Under the pieces are notes generated by a model that was not told the DNA's origin, ran no database searches, and saw only the letters and a list, made by a program, of their open reading frames with translations. 24,998 nucleotides of DNA from a virus. Location of the stretch: IMG/VR virus record IMGVR_UViG_3300027759_000392, positions 1 through 24,998 of that record; one strand, given 5' to 3'. How positions within the stretch are numbered: the stretch's first letter is position 1; every line of letters begins with the position of its first letter. The translations under genes and the position numbers were made by a program. Shown here in pieces: positions 1 through 21,900 of this stretch.

Positions 1-387
1 TCCAGACGAACCACTTGATCCGCTACTACCAGATGAACCACTAGTTCCAGACGAACCACTTGATCCGCTACTACCAGATGAACCACTAGTTCCAGACGAA
101 CCACTTGATCCGCTACTACCAGATGAACCACTAGTTCCAGACGAACCACTTGATCCGCTTATTCCGCTAGATCCAGACGAACCACTTGATCCGCTACTAC
201 CAGATGAACCACTAGTTCCAGACGAACCACTTGATCCGCTACTACCAGATGAACCACTAGTTCCAGACGAACCACTTGATCCGCTACTACCAGATGAACC
301 ACTAGTTCCAGACGAACCACTTGATCCGCTTATTCCGCTAGATCCAGACGAACCACTTGATCCGCTACTACCAGATGAACCACTAGT
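1..387 (-). repeat. Hierarchical tandem repeat: 45-bp and 36-bp units in a 171-bp super-unit
   Basis: The stretch consists of 45-bp units that look identical (starting at 1, 46, 91, 172, 217, 262 and 343) and a 36-bp variant unit (starting at 136 and 307). The two unit types share their first 24 bp on the plus strand. Three 45-bp units plus one 36-bp unit make a 171-bp super-unit, and 1-171 reads identical to 172-342. On the minus strand the 45-bp unit encodes one Thr-Ser-Gly followed by four Ser-Ser-Gly triplets. The 36-bp unit encodes Ser-Ser-Gly, Ile-Ser-Gly and two more Ser-Ser-Gly. In total 43 X-Ser-Gly triplets are visible. Neighbouring triplets use different serine codons while whole units match exactly, so the array seems to have grown recently by unit and super-unit duplication. 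It runs off the left edge. Confidence 0.97.
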
Positions 388-2213: not shown

Positions 2214-5200
2214 TTACACATTAATTAATTTAATATTTTGATCAAAAGCGTAAAAATCAATTGAATATTGAGGATTAAAACTAATCCTATTTAAAGTTGT
2301 TTCTCCTAAAAACAAATTTATAAATCTAGCCTCCGATCTTAAAATTTTAAATTTTAAAGTTTTTCCATCTTTAGTTACTATACAATATAAACCATGAACT
2401 TTTGCATTAGTAGAAACAGAACCAGAATTAAATATACTTACAAAATCTATCTTTAATTGTTTAAATTTATTTTCTGCAAAACCTGCATCTAAAGTTTCAT
2501 TTTCTATATTAAATGAATAATCATAATCAGAATTAATTGAAGTTAAATAATTTATGTTTTGATCGAATAATTGACCTTGTGTAAAAAACGTTTGAATCTG
2601 CAAATCACTAAAAGCTGAAGAAATATAAGTATCTGTAGAGAATGTTATTTCTTTTTTATTATCTTGGCTTATATCTATATATTCATCTTTTTCAACAAAA
2701 TCGAATTTTTCATAAGAATATTTCATTGCTGCTAATGAATATTCATTAGCAGAGTTTTCTCCTATATTAGTTATTCTATACAAATCTCCATCTTCTTTAT
2801 AATTATTAAGATAAATAGTGAAAGAAGCATCGCTTCTTAAATTTGAAAAAGAACCATAATCAAGATCCGGAAATAAAGAAAAATTAACATTATTTATTCT
2901 TGCATATGGTGTATTAAAAGCAACAACACCATACAAAGGGTTACCTTTAGCTCTTGTAATATCTCTTAATTTTTCATTATTATAATAATAAATTATAGAA
3001 GAACCATCGTAGACAACACTCAAAAGATCAGTTGAAACTACTGTTTTATTTAAATTCGTTGTTGTCGTTGTATTGTTTATATTTTCTATAGCGTATAAAG
3101 AACCATTAGCTATATATAAACCATAATTTATATCAGTTTGATCCGCTGTAGTATTATTTATTTCACTTAATCCACAAACTAAATAAGTTCCATCATAAGT
3201 CACTTTAAAAGATATTTGACAATTATTTACATAACTTTGTTTTGTAAAAGCTTTTCTAGTCCAACTTGCTGTTCCAGTCCCATCAGCATAAACAGTTTTT
3301 CCATCTTCTGAAGATATTACTTTACTTACTATATTCCAAGATACATAAGCATAATCAATTAATTTTAATTTTAAATTAGTATTATCTACTTCGCTCACAT
3401 AGTAAGATAACTCTGATAATTCATCATTAACTAAACTAAATATTTTAATAATACTTCCTAAAGCATTTTCAGAGACTTCTCTGTCAACACCTATATAACT
3501 ATTTTTATAATCTAAATAAGTTATTCTTCCAAAATTAATATTACTATTCTTTAATGCATCACTTATTCTTACAATATCTCCAACTTTTAATAAAGACATT
3601 TCTATACCACCGTTAAAATTCACAATTTGAGATTCTAATTTACCAGTAGTTAAAAACCATTTACCAACTCTTTGAGCTTGATATTTAGAAGTGATTCCAA
3701 ATCCAAGAATTTCTTTTTCAATTATTCCATACTTTTGAATTGAATTCGTATCTTCGACATAAACAATTTTATCTTTAAAATTATCAAGTTGATCAAGATA
3801 AGATACTTTAATTACTGAAAAAGCAGTGTTTAAATTACCAGAAGAATAGCTAAACAATCCATCTTTTACATTAGAATTATTAAATACATAAGAAACAGGT
3901 TTTTTCACATCACTTGTCAAATTTAAATACCCATTTTTAAAATAAAAGACTCCTCTAAAAATAGAAGTTAAATCAGATAATACTCTTAACCCTTCCGTTT
4001 CACTATTAATAAAAAGATTTGCCGCAAATCTCGACTCTAGAAAATCAGAAAAACCTTCTTGTCTAGCAACACATTTTCCAGATTTAACATTTAAATTAGT
4101 ATCAAAAATCTTTGTTGAAGCGTATTTTATAGAAACAGCTTCGCTAGACGAAGAAAAATTTGTTATTATATTTTTATATCCAGAAATATAAGAAACAGCA
4201 AAAGACTTTATTTTGTCTTGAGTGTTTAATAAAGAAGGATCTTTTAATATATATTCTTTAAGAGCTATAAAAAAATTACCACTTAAATCTGATTCTATAA
4301 ACTTACGAGGACCAAAATCATTATATAATTTTATTGTAGCAATTGATCCATTTGTTGTTATAGCTCCAATTACTTTTTTAACATTTAAATTTAAATCTTT
4401 ACCTACTTCATTTTTAATATCATACAAAAACAAAACGCTACCAAATGGATACTTATTTTGTAAAGTAAAAATATCATCTGTGGTTGTTATTTGTATTGTA
4501 TTGAAACCTTCTTGACCAAAAGTAAAAGAATTATTAAAATAAAAATTTTGTTGAGCATATTTTGTAGAACAATTCGTTTTAACTAATTCATCACAGTATT
4601 TTGATATTTTATATAATTCCCATTTATTAATATCATTTTCTGTTAATATAGATTTTGCCAAACCATATCTTCCATTAACACACAAATCATGAAATATCCA
4701 AGCTGGATTATCAGTCCATCTTAAAGATTTACTATAATTACCGCTCCAATCTCCTAAATATTCTTTAGCCTCCGAATCGTAATTATCTGGAACGGTTATT
4801 TTTAAAAGCTTACAATCAAAACTTCTTACTGGAACAGAAGCGAAATGTTTAGAACTTACTTTATTTCTACAAATAGCAGAAAAAGGGTATAAAAAATTAT
4901 AATTAACAATTTCAATTACACTATTAACAGAAAAAGCTCTAGTTAAAATACCTTTTCTAGGACCACTCGCTGGTATTCTTTGTTGAACACTATAAACGTT
5001 AACAACAAATTCAGAATTAATGTTATCTAATTTATCGTATTTATCTATTTCTAATTCAAAAGTCAATAAAACAGGATTTTGTTTAGCTATTAGATAACCT
5101 TGAAAAAGCAAATATTCAGTTTTTTGTTTAAAAGAGTTTGTCAAACTAATTACAAAACGAACCGTATTATTCTTAGCAGTCCCTTTGTCGTCTATATAAT

Positions 5201-5771
5201 ATAAATCATCTAAACTAATAACAACTTTTATTAAATTAGCGTATTTATTTTTTAAATAGTGAGAAAAAACTCTAGCATTATTTTTTAAATCTATAATAGA
5301 TTTTTCAACAGCGTCCTCAGTTTTTTCACTAAAAGAAGTTAATATATAATTAGGAGATATTTTATCTCCATTAACTTGAGAAAATTCAGAAATACTTTTA
5401 TTTAAGTCGTATATTTTAGTTTTATATTCATATACTGAACTTGATATACTTGGAATATTAGAAGTTTCAGATCCTAAAGATAAAGAAAAATCTGAAGAAC
5501 TAACATTGAATAAATTACTTTTTCTATCTTTTATAGAAACATCATTAAAATAAATTCCATAAGCTAAAGATCCATTTGTTTGAGTTGAAACGTTTGAACT
5601 TAAATCTATATAATTTAAAGTATTTCCAAAAGAATCTGTCAATCCTTCAATTGGACCCTCTGAAATCAAATCAACCGCTTCATAAAAACTTTCAGAATTA
5701 ACTGTAAAACCCTCAGAATTCGCAGAGTCATTAAACATTTTAATATCTGATTTGGATAAACTTATTTTCAT
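2214..5771 (-). CDS. J: J-like central tail hub / host specificity protein
   Basis: This 1185-residue protein matches the pattern of the lambda gpJ family, the trimeric hub closing the tail tip. Evidence includes the N-terminal D-L-I-S-E-G-P-I-E-G-L element at residues 34-44 and the 'I-T-V-P-D-N-Y-D' followed by 'Y-L-G-D-W-S-G' segment near 325-344. The N-P-A-W-I-F-H-D-L element with R-Y-G follows at 355-370. Residues 570-770 match the middle J region (R-F-A-A-N-L-F through the A-Q-R-V-G-K-W helix). Residues about 825-967 look like an inserted lectin-like beta-sandwich. After that, the Y-S-L-A-A-M-K-Y-S-Y-E-K-F segment at 1011-1023 resembles the fibronectin-III ends of J proteins. The start overlaps the stop of the I-like gene as ATGA, implying coupled translation. 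In lambda, J also binds the receptor; here that role may be shared with the fibre gene downstream. Confidence 0.93.
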   Translation of the reverse strand: MKISLSKSDIKMFNDSANSEGFTVNSESFYEAVDLISEGPIEGLTDSFGNTLNYIDLSSNVSTQTNGSLAYGIYFNDVSIKDRKSNLFNVSSSDFSLSLGSETSNIPSISSSVYEYKTKIYDLNKSISEFSQVNGDKISPNYILTSFSEKTEDAVEKSIIDLKNNARVFSHYLKNKYANLIKVVISLDDLYYIDDKGTAKNNTVRFVISLTNSFKQKTEYLLFQGYLIAKQNPVLLTFELEIDKYDKLDNINSEFVVNVYSVQQRIPASGPRKGILTRAFSVNSVIEIVNYNFLYPFSAICRNKVSSKHFASVPVRSFDCKLLKITVPDNYDSEAKEYLGDWSGNYSKSLRWTDNPAWIFHDLCVNGRYGLAKSILTENDINKWELYKISKYCDELVKTNCSTKYAQQNFYFNNSFTFGQEGFNTIQITTTDDIFTLQNKYPFGSVLFLYDIKNEVGKDLNLNVKKVIGAITTNGSIATIKLYNDFGPRKFIESDLSGNFFIALKEYILKDPSLLNTQDKIKSFAVSYISGYKNIITNFSSSSEAVSIKYASTKIFDTNLNVKSGKCVARQEGFSDFLESRFAANLFINSETEGLRVLSDLTSIFRGVFYFKNGYLNLTSDVKKPVSYVFNNSNVKDGLFSYSSGNLNTAFSVIKVSYLDQLDNFKDKIVYVEDTNSIQKYGIIEKEILGFGITSKYQAQRVGKWFLTTGKLESQIVNFNGGIEMSLLKVGDIVRISDALKNSNINFGRITYLDYKNSYIGVDREVSENALGSIIKIFSLVNDELSELSYYVSEVDNTNLKLKLIDYAYVSWNIVSKVISSEDGKTVYADGTGTASWTRKAFTKQSYVNNCQISFKVTYDGTYLVCGLSEINNTTADQTDINYGLYIANGSLYAIENINNTTTTTNLNKTVVSTDLLSVVYDGSSIIYYYNNEKLRDITRAKGNPLYGVVAFNTPYARINNVNFSLFPDLDYGSFSNLRSDASFTIYLNNYKEDGDLYRITNIGENSANEYSLAAMKYSYEKFDFVEKDEYIDISQDNKKEITFSTDTYISSAFSDLQIQTFFTQGQLFDQNINYLTSINSDYDYSFNIENETLDAGFAENKFKQLKIDFVSIFNSGSVSTNAKVHGLYCIVTKDGKTLKFKILRSEARFINLFLGETTLNRISFNPQYSIDFYAFDQNIKLINV
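2871..3299 (-). other. Lectin-like (ConA/LamG-type) domain inserted in the J-like hub
   Basis: Residues 825-967 of the hub protein alternate hydrophobic and polar residues, with features of a concanavalin A/LamG-type beta-sandwich. These include an early W-T-R-K, a central Y-G-L-Y-I-A-N-G-S-L-Y strand pair, and a V-V-Y-D-G-S-S-I-I-Y-Y-Y-N-N-E-K-L segment, which is the usual 'strand, ligand-loop, strand' hairpin. It closes with a G-V-V-A-F-N-T strand and N-N-V-N-F-S. It sits between the conserved J core and the C-terminal fibronectin-like part, so it looks like an exchangeable insertion on the outer face of the tip. Binding to a surface glycan is an inference. No catalytic residues are recognised. 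Confidence 0.6.
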
Positions 5772-6262
5772 AATGCAATTTCATTTATGTTAGTGACATT
5801 ATTAGAAATCACTATAGATCCAATTTTTAAACGTCCATAACCGATAGAAATAGGAACGTTTCTTTTAGTTACGTTTTCATAAGAAGAAAACAATCTAGAA
5901 TTCGTTTTTATATCAACTGGCGATTTTGGAGTTAATAACTTTGTAATTAAAAATTGAATACCTATAGATATGGCTAAAATCAATAGGCTTATACCAAAAT
6001 CACTTCCCATTATTAATGGAATCACTTCGATTTTAGAATTTGATTTTAATATAGGAGAGTTTATATATTCAACAGGCACGATCTTTCCATCGACATAAAT
6101 AATAAAATTAGATATATATTCTTCCAATATACCCAAAGTACTAACTAGTCGTCCAGTATTAGCTTCTATAGCTTCAAAAGCTTCAGCTACAGTTAGAATG
6201 TTTAAATTCCAATCTAGCTTTATATAATTTTCAAAAATGCCATGTAGTTTTACATTGACCAT
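5768..6262 (-). CDS. I: I-like tail tip assembly protein
   Basis: This 164-residue protein fits the lambda gpI family, required with gpK, gpL and gpJ to start tail assembly at the tip. Residues 1-82 resemble the ubiquitin-like beta-grasp half, starting V-N-V-K-L-H-G-I and ending with a K-I-E-V-I-P-L-I strand. Residues 88-110 are a strongly hydrophobic segment that could span or touch a membrane. Near the C-terminus, P-I-S-I-G-Y-G-R-L-K-I-G-S (137-149) matches the P-I-P-I-x-Y-G-R-x-x-V-G-S signature of the family. The gene lies 7 bp after the K-like gene, and its TGA overlaps the J start (ATGA). The K-I-J order is that of lambda. Confidence 0.9.
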   Translation of the reverse strand: MVNVKLHGIFENYIKLDWNLNILTVAEAFEAIEANTGRLVSTLGILEEYISNFIIYVDGKIVPVEYINSPILKSNSKIEVIPLIMGSDFGISLLILAISIGIQFLITKLLTPKSPVDIKTNSRLFSSYENVTKRNVPISIGYGRLKIGSIVISNNVTNINEIAL

Positions 6263-6269
6263 GATAATA

Positions 6270-6596
6270 CTATTTACACTTCATTTCAGACCAATTATCA
6301 GTATTAATATTATAAATCAACATGTCTAAACAATGAAATTTTTGATAATGAATATCAGATTCTGAAAAACTGTCTGCATTATTATGGTTATGAAATAAAT
6401 ATTTTATAGTAAATTTATTTTTAATCTGCAAATAATCAATTGGCGATATCAAAAAAAAATTATTTGATTCTGGATGTTTATTATCTAATTCTATAAAAAA
6501 CTGTTCAATTCCATCGAATACCACAAATCCACAAACTTCAGTGGTTTTGTTAATGCATAAAGATTTAATATGCTGTTTTAAATTGTCATTTATCAT
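6270..6596 (-). CDS. K: K-like JAB/JAMM metallopeptidase domain protein (short)
   Basis: I place the start at the ATG at 6596, giving 108 residues and an 11-bp overlap with the L-like gene. A longer frame from 6665 would add 23 hydrophobic residues, but that DNA encodes the conserved end of the L-like protein, so the extension is probably spurious. The protein shows the JAB/MPN fold pattern of the N-terminal half of lambda gpK. Glu20 lies in E-V-C-G-F, followed by F-F-L-I-S-P-I-D-Y, and a JAMM motif is formed by H69-x-H71, six residues, then S78-x-x-D81. These would bind a catalytic zinc. Lambda gpK also has an NlpC/P60 cell-wall peptidase half, which is absent here. The role is tail tip assembly, with possible proteolysis or peptidoglycan-related activity by family analogy. 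Confidence 0.85.
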   Translation of the reverse strand: MINDNLKQHIKSLCINKTTEVCGFVVFDGIEQFFIELDNKHPESNNFFLISPIDYLQIKNKFTIKYLFHNHNNADSFSESDIHYQKFHCLDMLIYNINTDNWSEMKCK

Positions 6597-7647
6597 TATT
6601 AAATGGATAAGTTGCTGAAAAAGCGCCAAAAGGCAAAGCCCCATCATCAGATAAATAATCTTCAAATCTTAATAAACATCCTCTCAAGGTTTTTGAGCAT
6701 TTATCTTGTTTCCAAACATTAGTATTTTTATCTGGAAATTTACCAATGACATTGTTAGAAATACAAACATAAAAAGATTTTGGTTTATTAATAAAATTAA
6801 CATTATTCACATCTTGTTGTTCATCTAAACTGAAAGATGGATCAACATAAACAAAATCTCCAGAATTATATATTGCAGTTGATGACCATTCTCCTTTATA
6901 AGTAATAGCTGTTAAACCATAAGAATTATTAGCTAAATCTTGTTTATAAACGCTTAAAAATGTTTTATCATTTTCATCAGCTATCGGTAAACCTGGGTCT
7001 GGAGAATTAGCATTTCCTTGCCAAGTAGATTCTTTAAAATATAAATTACTTGGTTGTAATTTATTTAAAGGAGTTGAATTAATTTGCGGCCCTTTAAATG
7101 CTGGAGTATTTCCATAATTACAGCCATAACATCTGTAATTCCAAGAACAAGTATCATTAGTGACTTTTCTGGTAGGCAACGATAAATTTTCAATGTCAAC
7201 TTTAGTTACTAATTCTAATTCTACGCTTTCTGAATTTTCTGATTTTTTTAAATTAATTATAAACTTATCATATGCTATATAAGTGTTAAAAGCTGAAACT
7301 CCAAATGGATTAACTCCATCTGTAAAATTAATAGAATCTAAATCTTTACCCAATATTTTTTTTCTAAACGCTTTTTTACCAATAAGATCTGCGCGATCTT
7401 TAAGTATTTTAGAAAAATAATTATTTATATTAGCCATTTTTAAAACAGGTCTGCTTTGTTTTCCATCTGATGAAGTTTCAAACGAAGAGAATTCACAAGG
7501 TATAAAGATATATTGGTGACCTTGAAAAACTATATTAGATGAAAAATTTTTAGAACCATGAAAACGAAGATAACCCTCATTTGATTCTAGCTCTATTTCA
7601 AACAAGTCCAGTATTAGATAGTTATTTAATTTAAATAAAGTTTTCAT
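6586..7647 (-). CDS. L: L-like minor tail tip protein with cysteine cluster
   Basis: This 353-residue protein resembles lambda gpL, a tip component reported to bind an iron-sulfur cluster through C-terminal cysteines. Residues 1-160 form the N-terminal domain (E-I-E-L, F-H-G and P-C-E-F-S-S-F-E stretches). A first cysteine set lies at C167, C173 and C176 (C-S-W-N-Y-R-C-Y-G-C), and a second at C317 and C324 (D-K-C-S-K-T-L-R-G-C). The second is followed by L-R-F and L-P-F-G-A-F, the typical end of the family. Between the two sets, about 140 residues contain a carbohydrate-binding-like module. The start overlaps the end of the 914-residue gene by 4 bp, and the end overlaps the K-like gene. A G-G-A-A-A-A stretch upstream is the only faint ribosome-binding candidate in the operon. 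Confidence 0.9.
   Translation of the reverse strand: MKTLFKLNNYLILDLFEIELESNEGYLRFHGSKNFSSNIVFQGHQYIFIPCEFSSFETSSDGKQSRPVLKMANINNYFSKILKDRADLIGKKAFRKKILGKDLDSINFTDGVNPFGVSAFNTYIAYDKFIINLKKSENSESVELELVTKVDIENLSLPTRKVTNDTCSWNYRCYGCNYGNTPAFKGPQINSTPLNKLQPSNLYFKESTWQGNANSPDPGLPIADENDKTFLSVYKQDLANNSYGLTAITYKGEWSSTAIYNSGDFVYVDPSFSLDEQQDVNNVNFINKPKSFYVCISNNVIGKFPDKNTNVWKQDKCSKTLRGCLLRFEDYLSDDGALPFGAFSATYPFNNDK
6700..6906 (-). other. CBM5/12-like module inserted in the L-like protein
   Basis: Residues about 248-316 follow the pattern of small chitin/cellulose-binding modules of the CBM5/12 type. There is an entry Y-K-G-E-W-S-S, then Y-N-S-G-D-F-V-Y-V, then S-F-Y-V-C-I-S-N-N, then G-K-F-P-D-K-N-T-N-V-W. 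The order 'W..Y..GD.V...Y.C...P..N..W' is characteristic. It lies between the two conserved cysteine sets, so it would protrude from the tip as a loop domain. The specific ligand is unknown. Confidence 0.55.
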
Positions 7648-10388
7648 AGATTTTTTCCAGCTAAATTAAAAGCATTTGGTAATCTTACTTGATTTGTTTT
7701 TATATTCAAAAATGATGACGTTCCCCCTGTAAAAAGTTTAAAATAAGTATTTAATAATGAATTATTTAATTGTTCATTTTCATTAGTATTTAACAATCTA
7801 TTATAAAAAATTATATCAAAATAACTCATACTTTCATCTGCTGTGGTACAATTACTTATCAATTTTAAAGTAGTACCATCAATCATTGATGTTATATATT
7901 TATCTGCAAAACCTACATATGAACCCATATTATAAGTAACAATTAAATTTCCATTTATATAAACTGAATATGTTGTATTTGTTCGTTTTATATTTAATAA
8001 CATTGGATAATAATCATTAGCATTTAATAAACTTTTAGATAATTGAATAAAATTATTTTTAGCTAATACTCCAGGCATAAACCATAAAGCATCTGCCATT
8101 TTTGTATTATCGATCATTTCATTAAACAATGGGCTAATAAAAAATTCAAAAACATTAAATTCTTTTTTATAATATCTTACGTTACCATTATAAGGAAATG
8201 GTTTTATTAAAATTTGATTTGCAATTGTTTTATTTAAATTCAGAGACCAATCTAAAATTTTAAATTTTGATAATTTATAAGTACTATTATCCGTAAATTT
8301 TGTATCTATTGTTATAGGTCTATAAGCCAACACCATATAAAGATCAAATTGATTACAATCTTTCTTTATCATTGTTGTGTTTGACGCTCCAAATGTATAA
8401 TCAAGATATTGAGAACCATTTAATGTAATAGAATTTTTTGCAGTATGTGAATAAAAAGAATTATTAAAAATACTAATATCATCACTTCCATCTAAAGTTG
8501 CAGTAGTACTGGTATCTTTCCAATTTTTATTTGTAGAATTTATAGCAGAATTTTCAAACCTAAAAACATAATCAGAAGCAATATTTCCATTATCTATCGT
8601 AAAATTAGCTTTTATATTCGAATAGCCATTTAAAATTTTACCAGCAGAAGATTGATTATCATTAATTCTGTTGAAAAATAAACTAGGATCAAATGAAGCA
8701 CTTGGTTTAGCAATCTTTTGATCAGTTTTTGTTCCTACATCGGAACTAAAATAATTAGGACTGTAACCTAATTTATTTGTATTTGATGTTATTTGAAGAA
8801 GTGGATATAAAGAACCGGCTTCTCCATAGGTATGTGGATAAGAAGATAGCGTACCAAAATTAGATCCATTGATTATAGAAGCAAAAAACTCTTTTCCATT
8901 TTCAGCAATTGTTATAGCGCCTAGTTGAGTTTCATAAAGTTTATAAGTTGTAGCTCCTTTGTTATTTGGAGATCCAAAAATAGGAAAAATAAATCCATAT
9001 GAATTATTATATTGATCCGTTCCACCAACACTAGCCTGACTATTTCCATATATCCAAGCCACTAATGCTTTAGAACCTCCACCTCCAGCAGTAATAGAAG
9101 AATTTATTTTTGAAATAACATTATAATTTAAATCTGTATACTGTTTATCATTAACAATATCTGATACTATATTAAAATTAAAAACTGATCCTCCATTTTT
9201 TGCATCTGTAATGTTTGAATTTGTTTGTGAGTAAGCCGCTGAAGTTTGAGAAAAAAGTTGATCAAAAGAAAATATACTAAAACCGTTTTCTAATCTTTTT
9301 TCAATAGAACCTTTTAAATCTCCACCTTTACCAGCGTACCCCAAAAGTTTAGTAGTATCAGATAAATAAATATTTATATTAGTGCCATAAGTTGGATCTC
9401 CAGTGAAATTTTTCAATGGGCCATTTAAATTTAAACAATATTGATTTTCATCATTTGCAGTAAAAGTAGTTAAATCAGGCAAATAGACATTTATTCCAGA
9501 TATATATTTAAAATTATTGTTTCCTTTATTTGCTGAAATAAATTTTTCATATAAGTTATAATTAATATAAACAGATTGAGGAGGTATATAAATATCAAGA
9601 GCTTTTTCAGTAAACATTAAATCCACTTTATTACTCATGTTACCAGTTAATACTTCATTAGATAATTGAGTATCCAATTGATTTATTCCTGTAGCGTAAA
9701 CAGATTCTCCCGTAACACCATCAACCCAAGTGAACATTCTAGCATAATAAGACTGATTTAATGCAAACGCAGCTCCATCATCATAAGTTTGTATTTTTTG
9801 AAAAATATCTTCATCTGCAAATCCATAATTTGTAGAAAATCTTGGAGTAGAGTTATTAATAGGAACATTAAAAGTTTTTGAAACTTTTTTAGTATTGAAA
9901 GCTGTATCTATAGCTATATCCAAACCATATCCAGTAACAAAATAATTATTTAAATATCCAGTTCCAGTTGGAGGTCTCCAATAAAAAGAATAACTTAACC
10001 CATTTTCTGGATCATAATTTTTTAAAGCTCTGAAATTTCTAATGTGTCCACCTGTAGTATCAACTATTCTATGACCTGTTGCATATATTGTTATATCACC
10101 GCTAGGATCTGTTAAACCATCTTCAGTTGATTCTGAAGATATTATTATTGATGATGTCTCATAACCAGATACATTTAAAGAAGTTGGATTAAAAAATATA
10201 TCAAAGTAATCAGAATTTCCATTAGGAATAATTAATTGAGTATCAGATAATAAAAAATTATCATCAGTACTAACCATTCTATAAAGAACCTCTGAATTTC
10301 CATTGTTATAAATATAAACAGGATAACTAATACCAAAACCAGTCATGCATTCACCAATAAATTTACCAGTAAAATTTGTATATGTCAT
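7644..10388 (-). CDS. Multidomain adhesin-like tail protein inserted in the M-L block
   Basis: This 914-residue beta-rich protein has no counterpart in lambda and sits between the M-like and L-like genes, overlapping both by 4 bp (ATGA). Residues about 10-106 resemble an ASH/HYDIN-type Ig domain (V-Y-I-Y-N-N-G-N-S, then F-F-N-P-T-S, ending I-T-I-Y-A-T-G-H). Residues about 112-240 look fibronectin-III-like. Residues 296-400 contain I-N-I-Y-L-S-D-T-T-K-L-L-G-Y-A-G-K-G-G, which recalls the Gly-rich strands of phage receptor-binding tips. Residues about 600-890 look like a concanavalin A/LamG-type domain, with S-I-T-L-N-G-S-Q-Y-L near the start and F-Y-N-R-L-L-N-T-N-E-N-E-Q-L at the end. The likely role is a tip appendage binding host surface polymers. 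The gene frame is certain; the domain names rest on pattern reading. Confidence 0.85.
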   Translation of the reverse strand: MTYTNFTGKFIGECMTGFGISYPVYIYNNGNSEVLYRMVSTDDNFLLSDTQLIIPNGNSDYFDIFFNPTSLNVSGYETSSIIISSESTEDGLTDPSGDITIYATGHRIVDTTGGHIRNFRALKNYDPENGLSYSFYWRPPTGTGYLNNYFVTGYGLDIAIDTAFNTKKVSKTFNVPINNSTPRFSTNYGFADEDIFQKIQTYDDGAAFALNQSYYARMFTWVDGVTGESVYATGINQLDTQLSNEVLTGNMSNKVDLMFTEKALDIYIPPQSVYINYNLYEKFISANKGNNNFKYISGINVYLPDLTTFTANDENQYCLNLNGPLKNFTGDPTYGTNINIYLSDTTKLLGYAGKGGDLKGSIEKRLENGFSIFSFDQLFSQTSAAYSQTNSNITDAKNGGSVFNFNIVSDIVNDKQYTDLNYNVISKINSSITAGGGGSKALVAWIYGNSQASVGGTDQYNNSYGFIFPIFGSPNNKGATTYKLYETQLGAITIAENGKEFFASIINGSNFGTLSSYPHTYGEAGSLYPLLQITSNTNKLGYSPNYFSSDVGTKTDQKIAKPSASFDPSLFFNRINDNQSSAGKILNGYSNIKANFTIDNGNIASDYVFRFENSAINSTNKNWKDTSTTATLDGSDDISIFNNSFYSHTAKNSITLNGSQYLDYTFGASNTTMIKKDCNQFDLYMVLAYRPITIDTKFTDNSTYKLSKFKILDWSLNLNKTIANQILIKPFPYNGNVRYYKKEFNVFEFFISPLFNEMIDNTKMADALWFMPGVLAKNNFIQLSKSLLNANDYYPMLLNIKRTNTTYSVYINGNLIVTYNMGSYVGFADKYITSMIDGTTLKLISNCTTADESMSYFDIIFYNRLLNTNENEQLNNSLLNTYFKLFTGGTSSFLNIKTNQVRLPNAFNLAGKNL

Positions 10389-12382: not shown

Positions 12383-13185
12383 AATGTATTTCTTAATGGT
12401 GCTACACGTTGAGTTATAGCCAGATTACTTTGAACTATTCCATCAGAACTAGTATCAATTGATCTAGATTGAATTTTTCCTGAAATAGTAAAAGTATTTA
12501 ATAATGAATTGGCATAATTTTTTAAATACAATTCGCAATATGTATTTTTTCCTTCTATTTCAGCAATATTATTTTGTTTTACTATGTTTCCTTCTACGGA
12601 AACGTTTTTTAATCTATTTGTTTTTGCTACTCTAAAAGGAGTTGTATACCCAACTTCAAAAAATGGAATTCGATCACATTGTTCGGAATAAGTATATTTA
12701 AATATTTCATCAAAACCAAACGATTTATTTACATCTATTATATAACTATGATTAGCATGAGCTATATTTGTTAATGGAGAATTTCTAGAAGATGTAAATT
12801 CTCTTATATTTACAGTGCTGTTTGTTGAATTTATTTTTCCATACCAATCAAAAGTGACATCCATAATAACAGAAGAAAAATCTGCAACAGCAAATGACAT
12901 TGATTTTAAATAACAATTGTCTATTGAAATCCCACCAAATGAACAATTTATAGAACTCTCTGAATTATCGACGGGAAATAAATAAGACGGAACTGTTCCA
13001 TTTAAATAAAACTGAGAAGATAAAGATCCTATTACTGTATTTTCTGGAGCGTATCTTAGCAAACTTCCATCAGACAAAAGAACTGGTGATATATTTGATT
13101 GTAAAGAAATAGACACAGAATTAGAATAATAAACAGTATTATTAATTCTAAAATCTATATTCTCATATTTGATAAATTTGCTCAT
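12379..13185 (-). CDS. Beta-rich tail protein, probable tail-tube-like paralogue 2
   Basis: I do not recognise a named family in these 268 residues. The sequence is almost all beta, with few charged residues. Two segments match the 314-residue protein upstream in the operon. One is residues 92-118 (Y-L-K-S-M-S-F-A-V to F-D-W-Y-G-K-I), against Y-L-N-T-F-G-L-S-C to V-Y-G-D-V. The other is the C-terminal segment I-S-G-K-I-Q-S-R-S-I-D-T-S-S-D-G, against V-K-L-V-S-Q-E-F-N-S-S-A-D-D. Such 'Y-L-x-S-x-S' strands occur in tail tube proteins, so a tube, distal-tail or tip ring role is plausible. The gene begins M-S-K-F-I, as does the next gene. It shares one base with the preceding fibre gene (TAATG) and overlaps the M-like gene by 4 bp. 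Confidence 0.8.
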   Translation of the reverse strand: MSKFIKYENIDFRINNTVYYSNSVSISLQSNISPVLLSDGSLLRYAPENTVIGSLSSQFYLNGTVPSYLFPVDNSESSINCSFGGISIDNCYLKSMSFAVADFSSVIMDVTFDWYGKINSTNSTVNIREFTSSRNSPLTNIAHANHSYIIDVNKSFGFDEIFKYTYSEQCDRIPFFEVGYTTPFRVAKTNRLKNVSVEGNIVKQNNIAEIEGKNTYCELYLKNYANSLLNTFTISGKIQSRSIDTSSDGIVQSNLAITQRVAPLRNTL

Positions 13186-14987
13186 TAAACTATTGTGTAA
13201 GCAATTGTTGTTACTACATTAAAATTAGCAGCCGCCGCTTTAGTACCATTTGTATTGCATAATCTATATTGCAATAATTGACCAGAAGTAAAACTAGTTG
13301 ATCCAATGAAATTAGCTTTAGTTTTAACTACGATAGTATTTGTGCTAATACCAGCAACAGTAGTTGCAGCAATAATACCGCTTGTTGGAAAACTCACGGG
13401 ATTACTTGGAGGACTAACAAAAAAACCCGAAACAAATCCATCTGGAGTAAATTCATTATATATTGGTGAAATAGCTGATATTTCAAATCTATAACCACCA
13501 GCAGTTTCAGCAGCAAGATCAGAAGTCATAAACATAACTCTTTCGACGCTTCCATTAAAATTTGCTATTGTAAACGGTGAATCTACAGAATTATTACCAG
13601 AAGGATTGCTGCTTGAGTTAGGATACAATGGATTAAAATAAATATCAGTACCAGTTACTTGTGTTTGATATGTTTGTACAAATTTACCTTTACAGTATGT
13701 ATCATTAGAAGTATAACTGCCATCAATGTCTAAACTTCCCGCTGTGCTTAATTTAGCTACCACATCAGGAGACGCTCCATTATAACCATTTTTGATAAAT
13801 ACAAAAGAATCGTTTAGACCTGGAAAAACAGTATCTGCATATAAATTTCCAATTGACCATTTATCTGTACTTGGCGAACTGTCATAACGAGAAAAAGTTA
13901 CTAAACTATTTCTTGGTCCACTATCACCACCTCCAAATGCCTTATTAGCTGCAACAACTATTTGCGTAGATCCCTGAATATTTGTTGATTGGAAATAAGC
14001 AGGAGTGGCTGATGAAGGCCCTGTCGAAGACGTTCTAACATCTAACCTATATGATGGACCAGTTGTTCCAAAACCAAAAAGACCATCATTTGATATAACT
14101 AAATTACTTTCAGATAATGTTGAAACTGAACCTATATATGTAGAACTAGCGCTTGATCCAACATAAGATGTAGCTGTTGAATTTTTATAACTGCTTACGC
14201 ATCTACTAACATTCGTTTGAAACCTCGATACTTCTCCAGCAGTACCACTTACATGCAGCGTATAAGCTGGAATCGCATGACCAATACCCACTTTAGGAAC
14301 GGTCAAACTGTTGTCCACGTAAACAGCATTGTAACCTACATTAATATCACCAAGATTATTATAATTTAAAAATAAAATTTCATCAGTTGCACTTGTTTTA
14401 ATTTCTGTATTATATGGATCAAAAAGTATGGCGTTACCTGAATTTTGAAATTGAATTGACACTCCGCTTACTAAAAATTTATCTGATAAAACTCCAGTAG
14501 AATCAGTTATACCAAAATTACCACTTTGATCTACTACAAATAAATTACTAAATGTTGAACCATTATTTAACGAAGATTCTAAATATATTTTTTTATCATT
14601 AGGCTTTTTACTAAATTCATAATAAGTATTTGGATCGCTTAATGAAAAAGCTATCTTTCTACCAGAATCAACAGTGCTTAATCTAATTTGACCTGAACCA
14701 TTTGTAGCAGTTAAATTATCTACAACATCCAACGAAACAAATGGACTCCTATCATTTATTCCAACAAAACCATAATTTCCACTAACTGACATTCCATAAA
14801 TGCCATTGTTCTCTAAAATAGTAAAACCTTGATTATTTTGAGCGTAAAAACCAGTAAAAGCTTTACTCAATTCATCTCTTGTTATTTTATTATCTTGAGA
14901 TGAATCAGTATTTGATATCAAAAATATATCAGTTGCTGCAACATTTATTCCTAATTTATCAGATAACGATGATAGTGGTATTCCCAT
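13185..14987 (-). CDS. Tail fibre-like protein with G-I-G fibre repeats
   Basis: This 600-residue protein carries three copies of the fibre repeat 'G-I-G..-P-x-x-x-L-x-V'. They are F-V-G-I-N-D-R-S-P near 74-82, V-G-I-G-H-A-I-P near 233-240 and F-G-F-G-T-T-G-P near 304-311; each is followed by a short L-D-V or L-H-V strand. The N-terminus (D-I-F-L-I-S-N-T, then K-I-T-R-D-E-L) is the usual start of such fibres and may be the attachment end. Residues about 440-600 form a separate beta-rich, Ala/Thr-rich C-terminal domain that could be the trimeric head. No S74 chaperone-peptidase domain, which many such fibres have, is present. It lies between two probable tube-like paralogues, an unusual place for a fibre. 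Function in adhesion is inferred. Confidence 0.82.
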   Translation of the reverse strand: MGIPLSSLSDKLGINVAATDIFLISNTDSSQDNKITRDELSKAFTGFYAQNNQGFTILENNGIYGMSVSGNYGFVGINDRSPFVSLDVVDNLTATNGSGQIRLSTVDSGRKIAFSLSDPNTYYEFSKKPNDKKIYLESSLNNGSTFSNLFVVDQSGNFGITDSTGVLSDKFLVSGVSIQFQNSGNAILFDPYNTEIKTSATDEILFLNYNNLGDINVGYNAVYVDNSLTVPKVGIGHAIPAYTLHVSGTAGEVSRFQTNVSRCVSSYKNSTATSYVGSSASSTYIGSVSTLSESNLVISNDGLFGFGTTGPSYRLDVRTSSTGPSSATPAYFQSTNIQGSTQIVVAANKAFGGGDSGPRNSLVTFSRYDSSPSTDKWSIGNLYADTVFPGLNDSFVFIKNGYNGASPDVVAKLSTAGSLDIDGSYTSNDTYCKGKFVQTYQTQVTGTDIYFNPLYPNSSSNPSGNNSVDSPFTIANFNGSVERVMFMTSDLAAETAGGYRFEISAISPIYNEFTPDGFVSGFFVSPPSNPVSFPTSGIIAATTVAGISTNTIVVKTKANFIGSTSFTSGQLLQYRLCNTNGTKAAAANFNVVTTIAYTIV

Positions 14988-14988
14988 A

Positions 14989-15933
14989 TTAATTGTTTAG
15001 ATAACCTTTATAATTAAGTTTTACACTTAAAACGTCATCAGCACTTGAATTAAATTCTTGAGACACTAGTTTTACGTTAGTAAATGATTGATTAAACATA
15101 TTTATTCCAACAGCTTTTCTATAAGTAAATAATGGTATATTTCCATTAACTACTAAATCCGAACCATTAACTGGTAAAGTTTCGTCTTGAAAAACTGTTC
15201 CATTTATGTTTATTGAAAAACTAGTATCATTATCATTATTTAATATATCATACAAAGATCTGGAAGTATAGTCGTCCACCTCTAAAGTAAAAGAAGTGTC
15301 TATTTCAATTGGTAAATTCAATAAAACTTCATAAGGCACATAATTAGGCCCCGGTTCAGTTGGTCCTGTTGGACCAGAATAAGAATAACCACTTTGATTT
15401 AATATATAAATAGGTCTTTTAGTACAATTTATATTATAATTAAAATCAGTAATTCTATTTGTGCTTGATCCGCTACATGTTAAAATTATATCTTTAATTT
15501 GTGGAACTGATATATATGGAGCTTTTAAATTTCCAGAAGCATTATAATTAGGACCGACATCCCCATAAACAATTATATCTGATTTTGTTGTTGGTATTTC
15601 TCCAACTGAACAAGACAAACCAAAAGTATTTAAATAACCCGATAAGAATCCAAATTTTTTATTATTATAATTTAAACTTCCTCTAAAACCTATAGCATTT
15701 TTATTTTTATTTTCGCCAGTAAATGCTAAAAACGGTTCGTTATATAATAAATATTTATTTATAGAAAAATTCGCTACAGGAACTTCTGCAATAACTTGTT
15801 TGTTATAACCAACACCAATTGTTTTAATTGGCGCATAGTTAACGCTGTATCCGCCATCTACTGAAATAATTCCAGAGATAGCGCTATTATTTAAGAAGAA
15901 AAAATTCTCGTAATTTAGCGTTGCGCCTTTCAT
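14989..15933 (-). CDS. Beta-rich tail protein, probable tail-tube-like paralogue 1
   Basis: These 314 residues have no family I can name with confidence. The protein starts 4 bp after the tape measure stop and ends 1 bp before the fibre gene. Residues 80-127 (G-F-R-G-S-L-N-Y, then G-Y-L-N-T-F-G-L-S-C-S-V-G-E-I-P, then V-Y-G-D-V) have the feel of a tail tube strand pattern with a V-G-E-I-P turn. Residues 210-310 form a second half ending in an N-S-S-A-D-D-V-L-S-V-K-L motif. A short S-G-P-T-G-P-T-E-P-G-P linker (186-196) separates the halves. It resembles the 268-residue protein two genes on. A tube, tail-terminating or distal-tail ring role is the best guess. Confidence 0.8.
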   Translation of the reverse strand: MKGATLNYENFFFLNNSAISGIISVDGGYSVNYAPIKTIGVGYNKQVIAEVPVANFSINKYLLYNEPFLAFTGENKNKNAIGFRGSLNYNNKKFGFLSGYLNTFGLSCSVGEIPTTKSDIIVYGDVGPNYNASGNLKAPYISVPQIKDIILTCSGSSTNRITDFNYNINCTKRPIYILNQSGYSYSGPTGPTEPGPNYVPYEVLLNLPIEIDTSFTLEVDDYTSRSLYDILNNDNDTSFSININGTVFQDETLPVNGSDLVVNGNIPLFTYRKAVGINMFNQSFTNVKLVSQEFNSSADDVLSVKLNYKGYLNN

Positions 15934-15937
15934 ATTA

Positions 15938-18900
15938 TTAGTTTCTTATTCCTGCTAATGAACCACCAAAGCGTTTTTCTTTTCTAATTGTCTCTAGAAC
16001 AACATCATAAACTTTACTATTTAAGTTTTGTGATAACTCGACATCTTGTTGAGCATAGCTTGTACTATTTGCTCCCATTTGAATTTTGCCATCTCTTTGA
16101 ACTGTAGTATTAAAATTAAACGAATTACTAGCGTTACTATTATTATTTACAGTACTATTATTTCCAGCCGCCGTTCCAAATCCAGTAGATGAAACACCGC
16201 CTGTTGCATATCGTTTTACAACTGGAGAATCAATTAAACCACCAGTAGCATAAGTTGGAACTGTATCTGATAAACGAGAGCCAATTGAACCACCAGCCTG
16301 TCTTCTAAAACGTGATCCACTGAAATCGGTTTTTAATGCCAATTTTCCATATTCATTTCCTATCTGTTGAGGCGTAGTTGGAGTATTAAATTTATTCATT
16401 CCAGATGATATTCCCAAACTAACTGCCGCACCGGCTAATGATCCAATTAATGCGGCTCTTTGTTGTTTTTGCGCTCTTTTCTTTTGTCTAGCTGTTTCTA
16501 TTTCTGATCGTTTTTGATCTCTCAATTCGTTATATAATTTACTTTCTTCTAATCCATAACTAGTCATGTTAGATTCCATAGAAGAAATGTCCTCAAATTT
16601 ATTGTTAAATGATCCACCAGCAGCAAAACGAGGAGCAGCAGAAAAGTTTAATTTATCAAGTGAGGCTGGACCGCCCATTGCCATTACAGCATTTCTATTT
16701 AATACATATTCACCATTCTCAAGCATTGCTGGATATTTATCTCCAGAACCAACTCCAGAAATATACATGCCAGATTGAGCGCGAATGACTCCCCCTCTTT
16801 GTTTGCCACCTACTGGTAAATTAGGAACACCGATATTTCCTAATATTCCATAAACTGCCGATTGCATTAATGTTGAGCTTATAGAATCAAGGAATTTACT
16901 AGCTATGCCCATTAAAGCTTCTCCTAAATTATTTGATTCTCTTATTGCAGCTTTGATTCCATCAACTAATCCATCAGCAAACATCTTTGGAAGATTTTCT
17001 CCTAAATTCAATAACAAATCATCACCTTCTTGTTTAAGGCTTCCCCAACCTTTTTTAAATCTTCCCGCAAATGTGTTATTAACTTTTTCTATTTGCGTGT
17101 TTAGTCTAACTTGAGCGTCAATATCATCTCTAGTTATTTGTAAAGCTTGTTGCTTAGTTTTAATTTGTTCTTGATATCTCTTAATCGTTCCAGCTAAAAC
17201 AATGTTACCAGCACTTCTTGCTTCTGTTTCTTGTTTTTCTAAGAAAGTTAATTGTTCTGCTTGAGTCATTTTATCATTGAAACCAGCTTGACTCAAATTA
17301 CTTTCGAAAGTGCTAGTATTATAACCAGTATTACTTGCGGCAGAAGCTATGCGAGATTCTTGTATGCGTTGAAGAGCTTGAAATTGTAATCTTTGTTGTG
17401 GACTATAAGAAGATAAAGCTTTTTCTCTTAATTGCATATCCTCATAGCTTGTTGGAGTTGAAGAATTTATTTGTTGATCCGTCATTACAGCATAAGGATT
17501 ATTTTGCATTTCTTGTACAGTCGCCGACCCTCCTAACGATTCACTCAATTGTGTTTCAATTAACGCCATTATTGTTTTATTCAATTCTAAAGTCGCGGCA
17601 GTATTTTCCTGTTCAGCCGCCATCTCCAAAACTCTTTGTTGAATTTCAGCGTTAATTGCGGCATCTTCTGCTGCTCTTTGCTCCTTTAATATATCAGCTT
17701 GTATACCAAATTTTCTTTCGCTAATTTGAGATCTTCCCATTCCATACGCTTCTCTTTGATCATCCAAACGTCTTTGCATAGCATTTACATTTGCGCTACT
17801 GCGAGCTTTAGCGATTTCTGAAGAATTACCTATGCTTGCGGAAAGATCTTTCATCTTTTCCATACGCATTAAATTATCTTTATCAACTTGGGCTTTTGCT
17901 ACAGATATTTCTTTATCGGCGGCAATTCTTGCTTCGCTTAATTGTTTGTTTATTTCTAATTCTTTTTTAGCGTTGGCTTGTTTTTGTTCGAATAAAATTT
18001 GAGCTTCATTTTTTTCTTTTAAAATATCAGACAGCTTATCTCTTTCAGCTTGATTGGCGAATTTTAAAGCGGTTTCTTGAAGATTTATTAATTCTTGTTG
18101 ATATGCAATAATTTTTGATCTTTCTTCTTCTGAAATTCCAGTATCTTCTAAAATCTTTGCTAAAGATGTTAAAGTAGTTTTAATTTCTTCAGGATTATTA
18201 AAAGGTAAACCTACTCCTAGCTCTACACCTTTTTTACCTGCCGTAGCCATATTTGCAGAAAATCTCGTTTCTTGAACTTTGGCAAATTGAGCTTCTTTTA
18301 AACCACTAACAATACCATTTACATCTCCACTATAATTTCCACTTTGAATTTGAGGTAAAACTTTATTTTTATAAAATTCAGCATTTACTTGTGAATTTGA
18401 AAGACTAGATTTAAAAGAGCCACTAAGTTCTTGTGCGTTTTTTGTTAAAAAATTTGATTTTTCATTGTCTTGCTCTGCAATAGCTTTGTCATAATCTTGT
18501 TGAGATTTTTGCAATAACATTTGGGCTTTTTGGCCTGCATTTGCAGCGGTAAAATCAAATTTTCTAGCGTCTGGAAGGTTACTGGATATAAAAGAATTTA
18601 TACTGTCTTGAAAGTTTGTTGAAAAATCAAGAATAGAAGACTGTATTCTTCTAGTGCTTGAATCCTTTTCAAAAGATAAAGCTATATCAAAAAGATTTTT
18701 ATTTAAATCTCTTTCTATTTTTCTAAAAATTTCCGCAAAAGATTTTGTAGCTATTTCTCTAAAATTAATAATTTGTTTTTGTACGTTACTACCAAGTTCA
18801 GATTTTTCTAAATCATTAGCTATTATAATTAACTGTTCTATAGGTATATCTTGTATTCTTAATATGGCTTTTTGTAACTTATCTTTATAATTAGTATCGG

Positions 18901-21900
18901 TTTCTTTCGTTATTCCAATAGAACCTAATAAATCTTTAGCTACAGTAATTGGTGAAGCTTTATTTTCAACTTTTTTTCTAGCTTCCTCAACTGAATTTGC
19001 GCCACCACCTTCATAACCACCATAAAGCTCCATTTGTGTTATTGTTGATCTTAAATTTTTTGCATCTGCGACTTCTCTAAGATTTTTAATTAATTTTGAT
19101 TTTTCATTTTTATCTAAAGAAAAATTAAATACAGAACCCAAATCTTTTGAATCGGTTTTACTAAATAAAGCGTTTTGCAAACTTGTTTTTTTTGTAGTTT
19201 GATTGGTATAGTCTTGCAAATTTTTTGTCATTTCTTGCACGCTTCCTCCAGCAGCTAAAAACATTTCCTGTAATTTAACATCAGCTATTTCATTAAATCC
19301 TGTAGATAGTTTTTTTGTAGCGTTTTCTATATCAGAAGATGATGCGCCAGACGCTATCATTTGACTCAAAGATTTTTGAGCTTCTATATAAGAAGAAGCC
19401 GCAGATATATTAGTTTGAGTTTTTTGAGCTTGCTCTTGATTTAATTGAGACAACTCTTCTGTGGTTAGCGCTGCTGCATTTAAAGCTGAAGTCAAACCAA
19501 CTAAAGCTCCAATAGCGCCACCAATAATCGTTCCAGGTAAACCAAATGAAGCGCCAATACCAGCGCCTGTTGATATAGCAGTTAAACCAGTACTTAAACC
19601 AGATTGAACACTTCTTTCCGTGGAGGTCATATCTGTTCGTTTTCTATCTCCAAATGCTATTTGCTCTGCAAATCCAGCAATCATTGGACCAGCAAGAGAA
19701 ATAGCTGTACTAGCGGATGATAAAGATTTACTTAATTTACTCTGTTGTCCATAGATTTCTTGACTAGCCTTACTCATTGCTGTATCTAATTTATCACCAG
19801 ACACCCCTCCTTTAGATAAACTGTTTTTCAATTTACCCATTTCAGAATCAATTAATTTTGTTCTTCCTCCGAATGCGCTTTCAAAATAACCTAACTGCTT
19901 ATCTGCTGATTGAACTGAATTAACAAAATCTGCAATAGCTTTATCAATATCATTTGTATTGAAAGTAGCATTACTTGCACCTGTTGGAGATTGATATGTA
20001 GGACTAACTCTTTGTGATGCATTAGGATTTCCAGAAGGATAAAAAGCAGATGATCCTGAAGGTGTTCCTGATGGAATGTATGAATAACTTGGACCAAATG
20101 AAGCAAAATTTGGAATCAATCCTCCACTCATCAATCCAGCATCCTTCTGCCCTCTCATTGAATCACTCAATGCATTTCCTAAACCACCATGATCAGATAT
20201 TGCGGAACTAAATGTTGGCTGACTTTTATTTCTTATGTGTGGGAAAGGCTTAGTATCGAATATGGCTTTATTGCCGCTCATGCTTTCTTCTAAGCCCATT
20301 ACTGCTTGTTTATACGCAAAGTTAGGAATAAAACCTGAAGCATGAGAATTAACTAATTCAATCAATGCCATATCTAGTTTTGCGGCATTGTATTTGTGAC
20401 CAGCTATTCCATTTTCAAAATCAGAAATTGCAATCTCCTTGCCATTGATTAAAAGCTTAGAACTCTTAGCCATTTTTGCCCAAGATAATTGAGGAAAAAT
20501 AGCTTTTGCAGGAATAGATTTGCCGCTCGCGTAATCTGCTAAAGCTTGTTCTTGTGGTAATAATACAGATTTAATAGTGCTGCCGGAACCAATTTTTTGA
20601 GCAATGCTTCCATATAATTGAGAACCTAATCCTTGACCTCTAAACTTTTTACCAACTTCAACGCCTTCGATTTCATAATTATTTTTGCCAGTTTTTATGG
20701 CTGATATATTTCCTTTTCCTTTTATAGAAGAAGATATCATTGAAGCAAAATTAGGAATAAAACCTTCAGAAGCTTCTGCTCTATAAAAACTAGGATTATT
20801 AACATATGAAGTTAATAATTCATTTGTTTTTTGCGAAAGTACCTTAACCAATTCAGGACTATTTTTAGCAATCTCATCATAATTTGTTGCTGCTAAAGGT
20901 AAAAACTCTTTACCTAAAGCGCTCATATATTGTAAATGCTGTGGATTTCCAGGTTCGTTAAAAACACCCAATAACTCTCTTAATCTAGCAGCAGCTTTTG
21001 GATTTTTTGTAGTAAAATTATTATATTTTTTAGTAATAATTCCTGTTGCACTGCCTCCAGTTTGTGAATCTTTAGGACCACCTTTAATTTCTATACCAAC
21101 TAAATCAAGTAAATCTGCAGGATTAGTATTAACTAATTCCATGAAAGAATCGAAAGATGATTCGCCTTGTATAGTATCTGGTTCAAGAGATTGACCTAAA
21201 ATTAAAGATTTTATTTTAGATTTATTAGCTTGTAAACTTATAGAAGAACGAACAAATTTCTCATATATTGGACCAAAAACATTTCCGTCACCAGCTTTTT
21301 TATTATAATCTGTTTTATTAGTTCTGAATTGTGTGGATCTAAAAGTATCTGCTGCACCTGCCCCTGCAATATTTAATGTTGGCTGTTTTGCGTCGAATGA
21401 TGGATTAGCGTATTTTTTAAACCAAGGTATTCTCAACATGCTTATAGGAGGAGCAAAGTTTGGAATAAAACCTTTATTTAACAATTTATGTTCTTCAGGA
21501 ACAAATAATTTTATTGATTTGCTGAAAGCGATTTTATCTTCTTCACCATTTTCATATTTTCGCCCAGTTGATTCTATCGCTTTTGCAACTAAATTCCCAA
21601 GTGTTATACCGCCCAATTTTGCTTCTCCACCTGAATATAATTTATCTGAAGATTCAAAATCAAGTCTTGCATTACTTTTTCTAGATCTAGCAAAAAGTTT
21701 TTCTTTTTGTTTACCTATATCTTTTTCAAAAGCTTCACCAGATAAAGCGCTCAATAAACCCGTAAATTGTCTTCCAAACTCAACTGTTTCACCAGTCGCT
21801 AAAGACGGAACTTTATTTTCTAATCGGGAAAGATTTTCAATATTAGATGAAGATAAATCTATTCCTTTGTTTTTTAAGTCTTTTAAATTTTTGGCCCATT

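Follow-up and report, generated by a model that had tools for sequence, protein, structure and literature searches.

A repeat-bearing, probable fibre gene beside lambda-type tail-tip genes

We analysed an entire viral record from IMG/VR (IMGVR_UViG_3300027759_000392; 24,998 bases), which we will call the window. At its left end, on the minus strand, an open reading frame (ORF) with 735 visible codons is cut by the contig edge at position 1, and the 3' part of this ORF is an array of Gly-X-Y triplets. Homologs of the lambda genes J, I, K, and L lie upstream of it, adjoining and on the same strand:

1–2205 (−): tail-fibre gene (most likely); ATG at 2205, 735 codons visible, no stop (ORF list; matches to tail-fibre families in PHROGs)
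420–2205 (−): N-terminal region of this gene, 595 amino acids, with putative FN3-like beta-sandwich domains (27 relatives, AlphaFold2, Foldseek)
2214–5771 (−): homolog of lambda gpJ, central tail fibre / host specificity (Pfam Phage-tail_3, PHROG 31, tblastn)
5768–6262 (−): homolog of lambda gpI, tail assembly (PHROG 32)
6270–6665 (−): homolog of lambda gpK-type minor tail proteins (PHROG 30)
6586–7647 (−): homolog of lambda gpL, minor tail protein L (Pfam Phage_tail_L, E = 1.5e-34)

A tblastn search with the gpJ homolog found 1,505 phage records, phi80 J among them. Most likely, the first gene encodes the tail fibre of a siphovirus whose tail tip is of the lambda type, and the array is its collagen-like shaft. 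An initial annotation, made from the letters alone, had already taken the array for a phage fibre shaft, and the adjoining J/I/K/L homologs bear this out. The array also aligns to three families in PHROGs (phrog_5073, 6320, and 1806; tail fibre or "collagen like minor tail"; E = 1e-23 to 1e-11), but it is the low-complexity array, not the N-terminal domain, that produces these matches. Similarly, the match of the array to Pfam's Collagen model (PF01391; E = 4.1e-18, which exceeds the gathering score) rests on the glycine period and does not settle the fold.

Another 27 viral loci in IMG/VR share the conserved N-terminal part of 595 residues, which has no protein match in INPHARED. The AlphaFold2 model of this region is of medium confidence (overall pLDDT 61), but its start is predicted well, with blocks over residues 11–220 at 67–93. 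Foldseek matched the model to FN3 proteins and to the central tail fibre of lambda (8xci).

We also noticed motifs and repeats in other genes of the window. A tape-measure-like ORF of 2,723 amino acids (15938–24109, −) has five copies of the motif G[FL]IPNF[AG] (at 22231–22211, 21472–21452, 20764–20744, 20335–20315, and 20122–20102, all −). The copies are 71–253 residues apart, as if they separated inserted domains. The ORF at 14989–15933 contains a 26-bp tandem repeat (15187–15240, 2.1 copies). And a 600-amino-acid ORF (13185–14987, −) has VGIGHAIPAYTLHVSG-like segments, which look like the stretches found ahead of S74 chaperones in phage fibres; it is possibly a second fibre or a decoration protein.

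Anatomy of the array

The Gly-X-Y array occupies 1–399 (−) and is cut by the contig end at position 1. It has 44 complete triplets (34 GSS, 8 GTS, and 2 GIS), with glycine at the first position of all 44 and no proline. The triplets are arranged in two kinds of units. Unit U is 45 bp (GTSGSSGSSGSSGSS) and codes for GTS GSS GSS GSS GSS, while unit V is 36 bp (GSSGISGSSGSS) and codes for GSS GIS GSS GSS. One V and three U make up a super-unit of 171 bp. The minus strand parses exactly into GGTACGTCT (399–391), then U V U U U V U U U, and then 3 more bases:

346–390 (−): unit U1 (45 bp), from the exact parse
175–345 (−): super-unit copy 1 (171 bp), comprising V1 (310–345), U2 (265–309), U3 (220–264), and U4 (175–219)
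4–174 (−): super-unit copy 2 (171 bp), comprising V2 (139–174), U5 (94–138), U6 (49–93), and U7 (4–48)

All seven copies of U are identical, as are both copies of V, so that super-unit copy 2 is identical to copy 1. Tandem Repeats Finder (TRF) reports a period of 171 bp, with a score of 797 and 99% matches. The exact parse and TRF thus agree with the initial annotation on the 45-bp unit, the 36-bp variant, the 171-bp super-unit, and the identity of the copies. The extent it gave, 1–387, is right at the contig edge and too short at the other end, where the array reaches ~399–402.

The longest exact repeat within the array is 224 bp (at an offset of 171), as compared to 19 bp elsewhere in the window and 14–19 bp in 10 shuffled sequences, so the array is not due to chance. 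The lengths of U and V are both multiples of 9 bp, and the Gly-X-Y register is preserved. Several serine and glycine codons are mixed within each unit, so the units are identical because whole units were duplicated, and not because of codon bias. The units look recently duplicated.

The array's sequence appears to be private to this phage. An exact 35-mer from the unit does not occur elsewhere in IMG/VR, and the best ungapped match to U in the loci that we fetched is 39/45. In INPHARED, the DNA matches to the window are to the array only, and they lie in two 735-kb records of uncultured phages.

The contig ends within the array

Because the record ends in the array and the ORF has no stop, the visible copy number should not be trusted: two super-units is a minimum. 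The initial annotation's duplicated super-unit is present as two identical copies, but two need not be the full count; it had missed that the contig breaks off inside the array.

Among the 28 relatives' records with a matching N-terminus, 21 also stop within sequence with a glycine at every third codon. Several of these contigs end exactly where an exact repeat reaches 127 bp (L017, L009, L058, and L044) or 99 bp (L008 and L047), which we take to be typical k-mer sizes for metaSPAdes. So the window's contig end is most likely a stop by the assembler.

Could the assembler also have altered the visible part of the array? If so, short-read assembly partly created the copy number and the doubled super-unit, and the true array has another length or another order. 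The initial annotation had named an assembly artefact as what would undo its reading, and the ends of the window and of its relatives speak for one. Furthermore, a 127-mer is too short to resolve the 224-bp repeat, and this leaves the doubled super-unit in doubt. However, independent records of other genotypes yield identical arrays, and in L062, L063, and L071, a 211-bp internal repeat is crossed into unique sequence. The 45-bp and 36-bp units are also shorter than one read. We consider it unlikely, but far from negligible, that assembly shaped the array in this way.

Contig ends of this kind matter beyond the window. In phages of this type, contigs break in the fibre gene, so the distal part of the fibre, which is expected to determine host range, is often absent from viral databases. 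K-mer-sized contig ends may be a general reason for the missing C-termini of fibres in viral metagenome records.

Array lengths differ between strains of other phages

The initial annotation suggested that the array is expanding or contracting by slippage or recombination, and that copy number be compared among related phages. For this class of gene, length change of that kind is supported. The clearest case is a pair of loci, L196 and L205, with complete ORFs of 2,003 and 1,931 codons. Although the in-gene flanks are 99.92% identical, many substitutions and many indels separate the two arrays, and the net sizes of the indels are all multiples of 9. A 270-bp indel lies between copies of an 83-bp exact direct repeat, and a 36-bp indel lies between copies of a 53-bp repeat. 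A 127-mer is longer than either of these repeats, so the indels are not explained by simple k-mer collapse. In a second pair, 108 bp of the L071 array are missing from L040, and there are zero mismatches over the ~2.2 kb around this gap; it is probably a deletion.

In other comparisons, array length is constant. Six near-identical records of one genotype (L062, L063, L064, L066, L070, and L071) all have an array of 119 triplets, with no indels. The arrays of L050, L051, and L085 are identical, and L095 and L173, whose flanks are 99.87% identical, both have 66 triplets. These cases would fit an array that is stable on ecological time, with units that are identical because of one recent expansion or homogenisation. 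Given the many indels between L196 and L205 despite 99.9% identity of the in-gene flanks, and the probable 108-bp deletion in L040, we doubt this explanation, although it retains a sizeable chance. In other phages of this fibre class, array length drifts between strains, and we saw no flicker within one genotype. By analogy, length would change in the window's phage as well. The question of fibre length is made testable by these natural alleles, which have direct repeats at their edges.

Modules and their exchange among the relatives

Beyond the common N-terminus, the relatives diverge: they continue with other Gly-X-Y arrays, or with a short domain followed by a jelly-roll module and an array. 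The module between the arrays has ~157 residues and a predicted TNF/C1q-like fold; one such module lies at 8200–8670 of L003. It has no match to Pfam's C1q family, and the jelly-roll assignment rests on a fold search with a model of medium confidence (pLDDT 72). The top matches from Foldseek were the central spike of phi812, a fibre of cyanophage A-1(L), APRIL, Bacillus BxpB/ExsFA, and C1QL3. The families matched by this module are mostly trimeric. One complete array-bearing protein, in L196, ends with a Peptidase_S74 domain (a chaperone).

In L016 and L018, the DNA encoding the N-terminus is 97.1% identical and the upstream DNA is 99.5% identical, but the continuations are wholly different. 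Judging from these alignments, this is an exchange of modules. In both this pair and L040/L071, near-identical DNA gives way abruptly, within or close to the fibre gene, to unrelated or diverged DNA, and these boundaries probably mark recent exchanges. We also noticed that L087, which has its fibre type in common with the window, is a contig from a metagenome-assembled genome labelled as an uncultured Bacteroidetes (Loclat). This is possibly a hint about the host, or else a phage contig that was mis-binned.

Collagen or another fold?

Pro-free Gly-(Ser/Thr)-Ser shafts are not rare; they are common in viral metagenomes. At least 120 viral stretches in IMG/VR carry such arrays, as judged from matches to a degenerate DNA pattern that spans twelve Gly-(Ser/Thr-like) triplets. 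The fetched loci include 38 complete ORFs, with 12 to 517 triplets each. In 17,559 triplets from 114 loci, proline accounts for 0.2–0.3% per position. So the initial annotation's view that this composition is unusual for a fibre shaft does not hold for metagenomic phages. Its statement that the array is not classical collagen, since proline is absent, is fair as a description of the sequence. In the literature, GTSGSSG-like strings led to no paper on a phage shaft, and we found no solved structure of a Pro-free Ser/Thr phage shaft. Collagen-like phage fibres are already known; the interest lies in the Pro-free class as a structural question and in its frequent loss at contig ends.

The window's array has the regular glycines of collagen (44/44) but not the proline-rich X and Y positions. 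Across the collected arrays, the first position is glycine in 20,071 of 20,243 triplets, a ratio that is an upper bound because the arrays were gathered with a pattern that favours glycine. X is something other than serine or threonine in ~10% of triplets, and the glycine codons vary synonymously (GGT/GGA/GGC/GGG). This variation implies that mutation reaches the glycine codons and that missense changes there appear to be removed. We read the array as a collagen-like shaft because of its 44/44 glycines, the FN3-like N-terminus, and the TNF/C1q-like modules between the relatives' arrays. In particular, the strict glycine register, together with putatively trimeric modules beside the arrays, favours a collagen-like triple helix.

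We also considered that the shaft might have another glycine-rich fold, such as a polyglycine-II-like bundle or a beta structure, or that it might be a flexible, possibly glycosylated, Ser/Thr-rich spacer. Proline is practically absent from the 17,559 triplets even though the codons TCN (Ser) and ACN (Thr) are one mutation from proline, and at X it is ~8-fold rarer than alanine. In bacterial collagens, 19–31% of X positions are proline (PMC8968730). A Pro-free sequence should form a weak triple helix unless it is cold, glycosylated, or otherwise stabilised. Matches to animal collagens in the PDB rest only on the glycine period, and we set them aside because essentially only the glycine columns match. 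However, a polyglycine-II sandwich seems inconsistent with glycine at one position in three, few GG pairs across the arrays, and no GG in the window's array: the sandwich of S16 gp38 has over 50% glycine and GG-containing motifs (PMC6851490). The strict three-residue register and the trimeric neighbour modules also point to a triple helix. Overall, a fold other than collagen seems rather unlikely.

That the array does not belong to a phage fibre at all, but to a host surface adhesin, to a DNA-level element, or to an antisense product (PDEPLDPLLP..., 2–460, +), is very improbable: the antisense frame is open and one relative is in a genome labelled as Bacteroidetes, but the record is viral, its tail-tip genes and an ORF the size of a tape measure share one operon direction, and 27 viral loci conserve the minus-strand protein. 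We rejected the antisense ORF as a by-product of the repeat.

The proposed role of the array

We propose that the array is a collagen-like fibre shaft on a lambda-type tail tip and that its length can drift without breaking the frame; we give this proposal as a whole a probability of roughly 0.7. Close to J, the fibre is probably attached to the tail tip by its conserved, FN3-rich N-terminus. Along the Gly-(Ser/Thr)-Ser repeat, three chains are probably wound around one another. By analogy with the relatives, the shaft would then carry trimeric jelly-roll modules and more repeat, and a distal receptor-binding or chaperone domain would lie beyond the contig end. Three observations speak against the proposal: the lack of proline, the constant length in six records of one genotype, and a visible gene part that ends before the C-terminus and shows no trimerisation or receptor-binding domain.

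Because the DNA consists of near-identical copies whose lengths are multiples of 9 bp, whole triplets could be added or removed by replication slippage or unequal recombination, leaving the frame and the glycine register intact. And because whole triplets could be gained or lost safely, fibre length might drift quickly over evolutionary time. Each 171-bp super-unit would correspond to ~16.5 nm of shaft, at 0.29 nm per residue.

More speculatively, the Pro-free shafts may be a widespread class of phage fibres whose fold or stabilisation is unlike that of known collagens, with DNA in multiples of 9 bp as a frame-safe device for changing length and exchanging modules. We think that this broader idea is more likely wrong than right by a good way. 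If it is true, the shafts might be cold-adapted, glycosylated, or a non-collagen bundle.

Comparison to known systems

The BclA-type spore filaments of Bacillus, which combine a collagen-like region with a C1q/TNF-like domain, resemble the window's relatives, which place a TNF/C1q-like jelly roll beside Gly-X-Y arrays; the BxpB/ExsFA matches from Foldseek are exosporium proteins. In contrast, the visible part of the window's gene has no jelly roll. BclA is built of GPT triplets. FibU, the collagen-like upper fibre of S. aureus phage 80alpha, has an Ig-like N-terminal anchor and then a predicted collagen-like segment, as proposed here, but this segment has only ~30 residues, the baseplate is that of a Gram-positive phage, and the density accounts for twelve copies (six dimers) (PMC7048315).

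The closest characterised relatives in kind are EPclA and EPclB (Ghosh et al. 2012, PMC3368898), which E. coli prophages have as side tail fibres. These form trimers, and both a real triple helix and a coiled coil were demonstrated. The EPcl shafts are rich in proline and charge (GPK, GPQ, GPA, GER), whereas X and Y in the window's array are almost only serine and threonine, with no proline. Nevertheless, the EPcl proteins are also phage fibres with a Gly-X-Y shaft between globular modules, the lengths of their collagen-like (Col) regions vary by multiples of three residues, and their modules are exchanged among phages (PMC3368898).
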